A stretch of 32,481 bases of DNA from Candidatus Magasanikiibacteriota bacterium (GTDB taxonomy: Bacteria; Patescibacteriota; Patescibacteriia; Magasanikbacterales; UBA922), in assembly GCA_016214105.1 (NCBI GenBank), contig JACRPD010000025.1, positions 1 through 32,481 of the forward strand. The letters run 5' to 3'. Position numbers and translations under genes: made by a program. The notes below the pieces were generated by a model. That model was not told where the DNA came from and ran no database searches. It saw nothing but the letters and a program-made list of their open reading frames with translations. Position 1 is the first letter of the stretch; the number at the start of each line of letters is the position of its first letter. Shown here piece by piece: positions 19,834-24,355 of this stretch.

Positions 19834-20957
19834 TAAAGAAAAAAGAAAAGGTGTTAGTGGCAATGAGTGGCGGCGTGGATTCTTCCGTGGCCGCTGCTTT
19901 ATTATTAAAGCAAGGTTATGATGTGACGGGAATGTTTGCTGTAAATTATAATGCTAATATACAAATGAATGCTAATGCTACTAATGGTGATTGCTGGTTG
20001 CCGGATTATAGAGATGCGGTGCGGGTGGCGGCGAAGCTGAGGATTAAATTGATTAAATTGGATTTTCAAAAAGAGTATAAAAAACTAGTTTTGGATTACA
20101 TGTTTCGCGAATACCGCGTCGGCCGGACACCCAATCCGGATGTGACGTGCAATAAATTTGTGAAGTTTGGGGTGTGGTTGCGAGCGGCAAAGCGGTTGGG
20201 ATATGCAAAATTAGCTACGGGGCATTATGCGAAATTGAGTCAAAAGTCTATAAAGTCAAAAGTCTATAAAGTCAGATTGCTACAGGCGAAAGATAATAAT
20301 AAAGACCAGACTTACTTCTTGCACCAATTGAATAAAAAACAATTACAGCATGTTTTGTTTCCACTCGGCAATTATTTGAAGTCGGAAGTCCGAAAGCTGG
20401 CGCGAAAATTTGATTTGTCCACAGCTGATAAGGAAGAAAGCATGGGGATTTGTTTTGTCGGCGAAGTGCCGATGAGAGAATTCTTGCAAGCATCGATTGC
20501 ACAGAAGAAAGGAAAGACTTCACTGAGCGATGGCACGATTGTGGGCGAACATGACGGATTGGCGTTTTATACGATTGGTCAACGCGAACGATTGGTAATT
20601 ATGAATTATGAGTTAGGAATTAAGCGCGACGAGCCATTGTTTGTCGTGAATAAAGATGTAAAAAATAATCGCTTAATTGTCGGCTACGAAGATGACGCTC
20701 TGTTATACAAAAAAGAGATTAAAGTCGGTAACGTTAGTTGGATTAGTGGACATTCTCCCAAGTTTCCGTTAAAATGTATGGTGAGGTTGAGGCATAGACA
20801 ACCGCTACAGGAGTGTCATTGCGAGGAGGAGCTCGCGCGACTACGAAGCAATCTCTTGGTACGATTCGCGAAACCACAACGGGCGGTAACGCCCGGACAG
20901 TTCGCGGTATTTTATAAAAATAATGAATGTTTAGGCGGCGGTGAAATTTTATTATGA
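19830..20957 (+). CDS. mnmA: tRNA-specific 2-thiouridylase MnmA
   Basis: VAMSGGVDSSVAAALL, GRTPNPDVTCNKFVKF, ATGHYAK, MGICFVGE; ATGA overlap with metG. Confidence 0.96.
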   Translation: MIKKKEKVLVAMSGGVDSSVAAALLLKQGYDVTGMFAVNYNANIQMNANATNGDCWLPDYRDAVRVAAKLRIKLIKLDFQKEYKKLVLDYMFREYRVGRTPNPDVTCNKFVKFGVWLRAAKRLGYAKLATGHYAKLSQKSIKSKVYKVRLLQAKDNNKDQTYFLHQLNKKQLQHVLFPLGNYLKSEVRKLARKFDLSTADKEESMGICFVGEVPMREFLQASIAQKKGKTSLSDGTIVGEHDGLAFYTIGQRERLVIMNYELGIKRDEPLFVVNKDVKNNRLIVGYEDDALLYKKEIKVGNVSWISGHSPKFPLKCMVRLRHRQPLQECHCEEELARLRSNLLVRFAKPQRAVTPGQFAVFYKNNECLGGGEILL

Positions 20958-22891
20958 TAATTTCAAACGAACTTCGCCAAAAATATCTAGACTTTTTCAA
21001 AAGCAAAGCCCACGCGATTATTCCGAGCGCTTCTTTGATTCCGGAAAATGATCCAACAACTTTATTTACCAGCGCGGGGATGCAGCCGATGATTCCGCAT
21101 CTTTTGGGCGAACCGCACGCGCAAGGGACGAGAATCGTTAATTCGCAAAAATGTTTTCGCACGCAAGATATTGACGAGGTGGGGGATAATCGGCATACAA
21201 CTTTTTTTGAAATGCTCGGCAACTGGTCTTTGGGCGATTATTTTAAAAAAGAACAAATTGAATGGATGTGGGAGTTTCTTATCAAGAAATTAAATTTTGA
21301 TCCGAATAAAATTTTTATCACTTGTTTTAGAGGAGATGTAAAAAACAATATCCCTCGCGATGAAGAAGCGGCAAAAATTTGGCAGGAATTATTCAAATCA
21401 GTTGGCGTCAAAGCCGAGATTGTTAATAACTCAGAAAAAGATGGAATGAAAGGCGGACGGATTTTTTATTATGCAGCTGATAAAAACTGGTGGAGTCGCG
21501 CTGGTGTGCCGGAAAAAATGCCGGAGGGCGAGCCGGGCGGGCCGGACAGCGAAATGTTTTTTGATTTTAGCCCTTCGACAAGCTCATGGCAAGCGCACCA
21601 CGATGAACAAAAATACGGTAAACACTGTCATGTAAATTGCGACTGCGGTCGTTTTGTGGAGATCGGAAACAATGTTTTCATGCAATATGTAAAAACCAAA
21701 AACGGCTTTAATGAATTAAAACAAAAAAATATAGATTTTGGCGGCGGGCTGGAGCGGATGACCGCGGCTTTGAATAATAATCCGGATATTTTCAGAATTG
21801 ATTTATTTTCCGGCGCGTTGAAAAAAATTGAAGAATTATCCGGCAAAACATACGGCGCGGATGAAAAAGAAACTTTCGCGTTCAGAGTTATTTTAGATCA
21901 TCTGCGCGCGGCCGTTTTTTTAATCGCTGACGGCGCTGTGCCGTCCAGAAAAGATCAAGGATATTTTACTCGCCGTTTGATTCGCAGAGCGGTGCGGTTT
22001 GCCGCTAATCTCGGCATCAGTCAGCTTTTTACGCCTGTTATCGCCAAAGAATATATCGAAACCTACAAAAATGTGTATGCGGATTTATTTAGCCAACAAA
22101 ATTTAATTTTATCTGAATTGGAAAAAGAAGAAAGTAAATTTAGAGAAACGCTTGAGCGAGGAATTATGAATTATGAATTAGGAATTAAGGGCTTGGCGGC
22201 CAAAGTGATTCCCGGGGATGTTGCGTTTGATCTTTATCAGTCATACGGTTTTCCGATTGAGATGACGATTGAGTTGGCCAAAGAGAAGGGAATAGATGTT
22301 GACGTGGCGGGTTTTAACGAAGAGATGAAAAAACATCAGGAGGTTTCCCGCATAGGCGCGGAACAAAAATTCAAAGGCGGATTGGCCGGGACAGGGGAGA
22401 TGGAGACAAAATATCACACGGCCACGCATTTGCTTTTGGCGGCGTTGAATCGCGTGTTGGACGGCTCTTCGGCCATTCGGCAAGCTCATGGTGGTGAGTC
22501 GTATCGAACTGCAAGCTCAGAGCGGGGCGGGATTTTTCAAAAGGGGAGTAATATTACAGTGGAAAGATTACGATTTGATTTTAATTATCCGGAGAAATTA
22601 ACTGTGGAACAAATTAAATCCGTGGAAGATTTGGTTAATGAAAAAATAAAAGAAGATAAAAAAGTTGAGATGTTGGAGATGCCGAGAGATGAAGCATTAA
22701 AAACAGTTAAAGTTTCTTTTGACCCGAGCAAGTATCCGGAGATTGTTAAAGTATATAAAATCGGAGATTTTAGTATGGAACTTTGCGGCGGTCCGCATGT
22801 TGAACACACCGGAGCTCTGGGTCAGTTTAAGATCGTTAAAGAAGAAGCCAGCAGCGCGGGAGTAAGGAGAATAAAGGCCATTCTTCTCTAA
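20954..22891 (+). CDS. alaS: Alanyl-tRNA synthetase, ends after the editing domain
   Basis: FTSAGMQPMIPHLLG, KCFRTQDIDEVGDNRHTTFFEMLGNWSLGDYFK, HTATH, CGGPHVEHTG; no C-terminal DHHA1-like region. Confidence 0.96.
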   Translation: MIISNELRQKYLDFFKSKAHAIIPSASLIPENDPTTLFTSAGMQPMIPHLLGEPHAQGTRIVNSQKCFRTQDIDEVGDNRHTTFFEMLGNWSLGDYFKKEQIEWMWEFLIKKLNFDPNKIFITCFRGDVKNNIPRDEEAAKIWQELFKSVGVKAEIVNNSEKDGMKGGRIFYYAADKNWWSRAGVPEKMPEGEPGGPDSEMFFDFSPSTSSWQAHHDEQKYGKHCHVNCDCGRFVEIGNNVFMQYVKTKNGFNELKQKNIDFGGGLERMTAALNNNPDIFRIDLFSGALKKIEELSGKTYGADEKETFAFRVILDHLRAAVFLIADGAVPSRKDQGYFTRRLIRRAVRFAANLGISQLFTPVIAKEYIETYKNVYADLFSQQNLILSELEKEESKFRETLERGIMNYELGIKGLAAKVIPGDVAFDLYQSYGFPIEMTIELAKEKGIDVDVAGFNEEMKKHQEVSRIGAEQKFKGGLAGTGEMETKYHTATHLLLAALNRVLDGSSAIRQAHGGESYRTASSERGGIFQKGSNITVERLRFDFNYPEKLTVEQIKSVEDLVNEKIKEDKKVEMLEMPRDEALKTVKVSFDPSKYPEIVKVYKIGDFSMELCGGPHVEHTGALGQFKIVKEEASSAGVRRIKAILL

Positions 22892-22970
22892 ACCTCCCCC
22901 TCGTAGGGCTTCGTCGTGAGCGCCCAGCCGAACGGGGAGGCGGGGAGGGGGTCTCAGCGAGTGTAGAAAA
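22892..22970. repeat. CCTCCCC...GGGGAGG palindromic repeat
   Basis: cctccccctcgtagggcttcgtcgtgagcgcccagccgaacggggaggcggggaggggg. Confidence 0.6.
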
Positions 22971-22980
22971 AAACAAGCCT

Positions 22981-23928
22981 ATGTTTTTCAAGTTTTTAGA
23001 AATAAAAAAATCGTCCATAGCTGGAAAAGGGATTTTTAGCAACAAGAATTTTAAAAAAGGGGAAGTAATTTTTACCGTGCATGGTCCTATTGTCAAATAT
23101 TCAAAAGATCCTGATTGGAGAATAGGGGAAGATTGGTTACAAATAAGTCAAAACGCTTGGAAAATTCCCTATCGGGATAATCCGTGGATTTTTATTAATC
23201 ATTCTTGTCAACCGAATGTCGGTCTTAAGGGAACCTCAACAGTTGTCGCCATTCGTTCAATCTATAAAAATGAAGAAATTGTTATTGATTATTCGTGGAC
23301 CGAAGCCTCTGAGAAAGGTTGGCACATGATATGTCACTGCGGAGCGCCAAACTGTAGAAAACTGATACAAAGTGTACAATTTTTGCCAGTAAATATATTT
23401 AAAAAATACAGACAGTATATACCTGCCTATCTGCGCAGTAGATATATTAAAAATAAGGTGTACGAAAAAAGAGATAAAAAAGGCGATTACAGATTGTATG
23501 CCAAAGATGTGATTAAAAAAAATGAGTTGGTATTTCAGGTAGAAGGGACGAAGATAACGTACCCGAAAAGTCCAAATTATAAAATTGGGTACAAATGGCT
23601 TGGGATTGGTAAAAGAGAGTGGATAATACCTTATCAGAATAATCCATGGTGTTTTTTCCGACATTCATGTACTCCGAATGTAGGTTTACGCGACAGAGAT
23701 AAAGTAGTCGCCATGAGGAAAATTCGTGCTAATGAAGAGATTACTATTGATGACTCTATTTCCGAAGTTGATGTCAATTGGTCGATGACATGTGCTTGTG
23801 GCGCAAAAAATTGCAGAAAGATAATTCGATCCATACAATACCTTCCATTGCGACTTTTTCAAAGGTATAAATCATATATACCTCCGCTTTTTAAAAAAGT
23901 GTACAAGGAATATAATAATTATGTTTAA
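22981..23928 (+). CDS. Tandem SET-domain protein (putative lysine methyltransferase)
   Basis: Copy 1: AGKGIF, NHSCQPNV, EEIVIDYS, post-SET CHCGAPNCRK. Copy 2: RHSCTPNV, EEITIDDS, CACGAKNCRK. Confidence 0.88.
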   Translation: MFFKFLEIKKSSIAGKGIFSNKNFKKGEVIFTVHGPIVKYSKDPDWRIGEDWLQISQNAWKIPYRDNPWIFINHSCQPNVGLKGTSTVVAIRSIYKNEEIVIDYSWTEASEKGWHMICHCGAPNCRKLIQSVQFLPVNIFKKYRQYIPAYLRSRYIKNKVYEKRDKKGDYRLYAKDVIKKNELVFQVEGTKITYPKSPNYKIGYKWLGIGKREWIIPYQNNPWCFFRHSCTPNVGLRDRDKVVAMRKIRANEEITIDDSISEVDVNWSMTCACGAKNCRKIIRSIQYLPLRLFQRYKSYIPPLFKKVYKEYNNYV

Positions 23929-24355
23929 AAAACTCATCACCAACGCCTGGTCTCTCCGCCACCAATTTTTTCGCTATTTCTGCGTCGGTTTTTCCGCGTT
24001 TATTTTAGATATGGGTTCGTTGATGCTGTTAAAAGAAGTTTTTGACTGGAAACCTATCACTGCGGTCATTGCCAATCAAGTGTTTATTATCGCCTACGTT
24101 TTTTTGTTAAACAAGTATTGGTCGTTTGACAGCAAGGAATTAGATCATCGCCAGCTTGTCCGTTTTTTGATATTGGTTGGTTTTAATTACGCCGTCTCAA
24201 TAACGACAATGTATATATTTAATCATCGTTTGGCTTTTGATTATCGGTTAGTCAGAATTGGCACAATTATTTTAGCAACTTGCTGGAATTTTTTGAGCTA
24301 CAAATACTGGGTTTATCGTTCAAAATCACCAATACTGAATAATCCGCTTAATTAA
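23921..24355 (+). CDS. GtrA-family membrane protein
   Basis: FFRYFCVGFSAFILDMGSLMLL, NKYWSF, four TM segments. Confidence 0.88.
   Translation: MFKKLITNAWSLRHQFFRYFCVGFSAFILDMGSLMLLKEVFDWKPITAVIANQVFIIAYVFLLNKYWSFDSKELDHRQLVRFLILVGFNYAVSITTMYIFNHRLAFDYRLVRIGTIILATCWNFLSYKYWVYRSKSPILNNPLN

Follow-up and report, generated by a model that had tools for sequence, protein, structure and literature searches.

Most known cases of a dead methyltransferase domain controlling a live one are eukaryotic. The eukaryotic enzymes PRMT7 and PRMT9 are tandem duplicates that pair an active N-terminal domain with a dead C-terminal domain, and PRMT7 needs its dead duplicate to be active, the two domains making up a pseudodimer (PMC10908127). 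Among SET-domain proteins, the eukaryotic MLL/SET1 histone-lysine methyltransferases carry one SET domain per chain, with activity set by WRAD partners. MLL5/SET3 is a lone eukaryotic pseudo-SET with no active SET fused to it, and in MLL5 the loss of XGXG and an Asn to Arg change in the NH motif accompany loss of SAM binding (PMC5094779). Two SET domains per chain are described for the green alga Chlamydomonas in the Class IV-C plant-lineage proteins, which are eukaryotic and also carry SAD_SRA and PreSET domains; the passage describing them reports no active/dead split (PMC5725981). The single-domain SET proteins of bacteria and archaea (PF00856) have all catalytic motifs intact, and BurB (9l4t), a bacterial SET methionine S-methyltransferase, is likewise a single domain, acting on a small-molecule substrate. 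A literature search that covered few subscription journals turned up no bacterial tandem SET protein with one active and one dead copy; sequence searches beyond the phylum of the organism studied here were shallow.

The stretch of DNA analysed, termed the window, spans 32,481 nucleotides from a Candidatus Magasanikiibacteriota bacterium. An ATG-initiated open reading frame at 22981..23928 (+) encodes a tandem SET protein of 315 aa, composed of two complete units of SET, post-SET, and C-terminal tail. The SET family profile (PF00856) matches two stretches of the protein (E=6.2e-22). In a search of the genome, 23023-23292 scored 44.1 bits and 23491-23751 scored 31.6 bits, both above the curated cut-off of 22.4 bits, and both copies are therefore members of the SET family. 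PF00856 has no other match in the genome (G000; 840 kb, 91% complete). The two copies share 44% identity over 151 residues, and the tail after the post-SET, S[IV]Q[YF]LP...Y...IP...Y, is present in both and belongs to the repeat unit. The sequence-only reading, which had proposed two full SET plus post-SET units, is borne out, and its list of motifs is correct.

Copy 1 (residues 4-156; 22990..23448, +) has its motifs intact. The SAM-binding GxG motif, G15-K-G17 within AGKG, lies at 23023..23031, NHSCQPN (residues 73-79) at 23197..23217, and Tyr104, at the catalytic position in IDYSW, at 23290..23292. The post-SET CxC....C (C118, C120, and C125; 23332..23355) forms a predicted zinc site with C76. 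Copy 2 (residues 157-312; 23449..23916, +) is a pseudo-SET with post-SET and tail. DYRLYAK (residues 169-175; 23485..23505) stands where GxG is lost, RHSCTPN (residues 227-233; 23659..23679) replaces the Asn of the NH motif with Arg, and IDDSI (residues 256-260; 23746..23760) replaces the Tyr of the catalytic position with Asp258, while the post-SET CxC....C (C271, C273, and C278; 23791..23814) is kept. The loss of GxG and the Asn to Arg change are also seen in MLL5/SET3, a likeness that concerns these two motifs. Each copy matches solved SET structures, with the MLL family ranking first.

Protein searches covered the genus, family, order, class, and phylum as well as the surroundings of two carriers, in total more than 1,000 distinct genomes. 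Five further full-length tandem genes were found, 45-55% identical to the window protein and spread over two classes of the phylum. Two are from the same family as the window (G014, 54%; G004, 55%), one is from a different order of the same class (G338, 50%), and two are from a single genus of another class (G625, 48%; G1002, 45%). Genome size, gene content, and named relatives, with two Wolfebacteria records among five hits, mark the group as Patescibacteria-like. At these identities the alignment is almost without gaps, so the two units are fixed along with their linker. The arrangement had been called unusual for a bacterium, and six tandem genes in more than 1,000 genomes agree with this within the sampled Patescibacteria. 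One pattern scan across GTDB genomes and scans of phage and plasmid records, all shallow, showed no tandem SET; phage records gave no match, for which phage carriage was rejected, and the plasmid-record matches were distant SET proteins of 23-34% identity.

Single-domain SET relatives are numerous. The nearest (G616, G959, and G076) are from the same phylum, are 44-50% identical to parts of the window protein, and share the SET domain, post-SET cysteines, and C-terminal tail with it; unlike the tandem protein, they have one domain with motifs intact. Homologues that are single or have both copies intact had been named as evidence against an active/pseudo pair. The single-SET relatives exist but form separate lineages, and no tandem gene with both copies intact was found in the genomes searched.

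The distribution of SET genes is patchy and sometimes expanded: the 1.2-Mb genome of G004 has six PF00856 matches in five places, the tandem gene being one of these. Other architectures were also encountered. In a Saprospiraceae contig (JADLHT010000014.1), L006:6501-7994 (+) encodes a D-Ala-D-Ala-ligase-like ATP-grasp protein with a SET domain fused at its C-terminus, and a separate single SET gene lies ~1 kb upstream at L006:4932-5444 (+). Proteins of 513-514 aa at L111:1402-2943 (+, G937) and L114:1069-2607 (+, G1040) have an N-terminal SET domain and a C-terminal region of ~300 aa without a Pfam match; these C-terminal parts look related by eye.

Motifs were scored per alignment column in the six tandem proteins and the single-SET relatives. 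In copy 1, G15, G17, N73, H74, C76, N79, D103, Y104, C118, C120, and C125 are kept in all six proteins. In copy 2, GxG is absent and Tyr is replaced by Asp in every one of the six, and the Asn of the NH motif is replaced by Arg (three), Lys (two), or Cys (one). All four cysteines and the Asn of PN (the N79 column) are kept in each copy 2, and the His in five. The motifs of a catalytically competent SET (GxG, NHxCxPN, and DY) are present in copy 1 and lost from copy 2 in 6/6, whereas the cysteine pattern of the post-SET zinc-binding subfamily (Cys of HSC with CxC....C), a predicted zinc site, is present in both copies of all six. For comparison, single-SET domains keep the Tyr in 67 of 67 distinct sequences and the Asn in 65; a 68th row (L105) is a fragment of the window's own gene and was left out. 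The five further genes show that the pattern seen in the window is not due to chance. Given the motif losses and the MLL5 precedent (PMC5094779), copy 2 is predicted not to bind SAM. Elsewhere, a 416-aa protein at L053:568-1815 (-, G040) starts like the window protein, seemingly lacks NHSC, and has no Pfam match; it is possibly another pseudo-SET.

The second copy had been described as degenerate, which holds for its motifs and fails if decay is meant. In conservation copy 2 equals copy 1, with identities between orthologues of 48-71% and 45-69%, respectively, and pN of 0.18-0.35 and 0.22-0.39, synonymous sites being saturated. That copy 2 is merely decaying after a recent duplication, without function, has its lost motifs to recommend it, but the identical losses in 6/6 proteins across two classes, the retention of the zinc cysteines in each, and a constraint equal to that of copy 1 led us to reject this reading, which is hardly credible. 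The recurrence of the same arrangement in a few distant relatives likewise indicates that the dead half is probably functional.

The phylogeny, proposed earlier as a check for a recent duplication, points the other way. Copy 2 is one clade, with support of 98/92 for five carriers and 87/87 for six, when G1002 is added. The tree, whose root is not fixed, does not demand monophyly of copy 1 and does not reject it (AU p=0.465); the grouping of all twelve copies as a single clade has an AU p of 0.319. The simplest reading is one old duplication after which copy 2 soon lost catalysis, followed by long selection. Persistence over time is also indicated by G625 and G1002, whose tandem genes are 70% identical and lie at the same locus. 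Together, the pattern in 6/6 homologues, the copy 2 clade, and the equal constraint strongly support, at the level of sequence, the proposed pairing of one intact SET with one pseudo-SET; the regulatory or substrate-binding role suggested for the latter is a hypothesis.

We propose, with a probability of about one half, that the protein is a fused pseudo-dimer methyltransferase in which the dead copy 2 is a built-in partner of copy 1. Copy 1 would bind SAM and transfer a methyl group, the likeliest target being a lysine of an intracellular protein. Copy 2 would neither bind SAM nor catalyze, and would retain the SET fold and the zinc-binding post-SET. By analogy with PRMT7, it would act as a permanent partner that stabilizes copy 1, helps to hold the substrate, or both. 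This reading is supported by the motifs being kept in copy 1 and lost in copy 2 in 6/6 proteins, by the equal constraint on the copies, and by the single clade of copy 2. The PRMT7-like arrangement, a tandem duplicate whose second domain lacks cofactor motifs, is present; PRMT7 and PRMT9 work as an analogue only, as they have a Rossmann fold and no homology to the tandem SET protein. The close single-SET relatives (G076, G616, and G959) imply that a fused partner is not needed by the fold in principle. AlphaFold models, computed without the homologues found, were too poor to show contact between the copies, both for the full-length protein (pLDDT 34) and for copy 2 (pLDDT 52); Foldseek matched the latter to MLL-type SET structures with E ~1e-5 and TM ~0.46, which adds nothing to the sequence comparison.

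The main rival to a fused partner is a reader or docking role for copy 2, in which a remodelled cleft, with Asp258 and a basic surface, would bind a peptide, a methylated product, or nucleic acid and bring copy 1 to its target, with no part as a dimer partner. The Tyr to Asp replacement in 6/6 proteins is in keeping with such a role, as are the neighbouring residues D257, D258, S259, I260, E262, D264, and W267, which are invariant in a five-sequence alignment; the sixth tandem protein has IDDSITETDPRW. However, only the Tyr to Asp change, the Ile, and the second Asp of this stretch are specific to copy 2, the invariant D, S, E, and W being common to copy 1. Both halves are basic in all six tandem proteins (pI 9.3-10), although a basic pI is common in other proteins of this genome. 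We consider the reader role rather improbable. The invariant Asp258 and the motif IDDSI[ST]E.D..W may signal a distinct binding role for copy 2, beyond a merely structural one.

The nature of the substrate bears on a further alternative, that the target of copy 1 is a small molecule, as methionine is for BurB. BurB uses free Met (PMC12542666), shows sequence similarity to both copies, and is the top non-eukaryotic solved match of the tandem protein (E=1.1e-7). The genome, 91% complete, yielded no PF00808 match and hence no histone-fold gene, which would suit a small-molecule substrate and led us to reject a histone substrate and chromatin methylation. Against this, MLL-family lysine methyltransferases score better (E=3.9e-10); the best-scoring solved relatives (7u5v and 2w5y) share the SET and post-SET CxC....C with the tandem protein. 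In addition, no biosynthetic cluster lies near any tandem gene, and a small-molecule substrate gives no reason for the second domain. As the substrate contacts of BurB are made via the main chain (PMC12542666), sequence cannot decide on an activity of this type, which we regard as unlikely.

The position of the gene was compared among relatives. In the window, alaS (alanyl-tRNA synthetase; 20954..22891, +) borders the tandem gene on the left and a gtrA-like membrane protein gene (23921..24355, +) on the right, the latter overlapping the end of the SET gene by 8 nt. In a congeneric sister species (G001), the order is alaS, gtrA, infA, without a SET gene, and homology between the two genomes restarts at the gtrA start. 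Of 29 further infA loci examined in the family, 19, G001 included, have matches to both alaS and gtrA upstream of infA, the alaS match being partial in a few. None of these 19 loci has a tandem SET match, including those of the carriers G014 and G004, in which the tandem gene is located elsewhere. The gene has a GC content of 35% versus ~42% for the window, and a GC3 of 31-32% versus 40-47% in its neighbours. The low GC and GC3 and the uninterrupted alaS-gtrA order in relatives point to an insertion by horizontal transfer, recent-looking in this genome. Between alaS and the SET gene, 22892-22980 is GC-rich intergenic DNA, unlike the low-GC gene, and the corresponding place in G001 holds different, repeat-like DNA.

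Carrier neighbourhoods have no genes in common except in G625 and G1002, of one genus. In these two (L104 and L117), the tandem gene has FtsJ/RlmE-, RsmG-, and RsmE-like genes around it in a common order; the first two calls are supported by Pfam and the RsmE-like gene is named from its sequence. No conserved gene neighbour hinting at a substrate was seen among the carriers examined. An operon with ribosomal genes was considered as a functional hint and rejected, as the loci of other carriers are unrelated and the gene is missing from this site in the sister species and in further members of the family. A defence system was also rejected, as there was no meaningful PADLOC match.

Horizontal acquisition also fits export of the protein as an effector against a host or prey cell, comparable to bacterial SET effectors that reach the nuclei of eukaryotes. 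For three of five tandem members there is a weak match to the LegAS4 NCBIfam model (best E=1.8e-4), but such matches are expected from the common SET domain, and the window protein itself does not match the LegAS4/AnkI model (NF043024) at E<=1. An N-terminal signal is not evident, the examined flanks hold no linked secretion gene, and an effector is highly improbable.

Our broader proposal, returning to the fused partner, is tentative and somewhat less probable than the pseudo-dimer itself. The six genes may represent a family of prokaryotic tandem SET enzymes, active in one copy and pseudo in the other, that has not been described before and that spreads by horizontal transfer among lineages of Patescibacteria. 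Its dead domain, with the fixed Tyr to Asp change, would have been re-purposed as a built-in activator or substrate holder, a SET-fold counterpart of the PRMT7 pseudodimer. The protein offers a compact bacterial live and dead pair of 315 residues on one chain, in six natural variants, and the role of the pseudo-SET is directly testable by splitting the protein in two. It is also a conserved predicted enzyme that has passed into bacteria whose very small genomes lack any recognisable histone gene.
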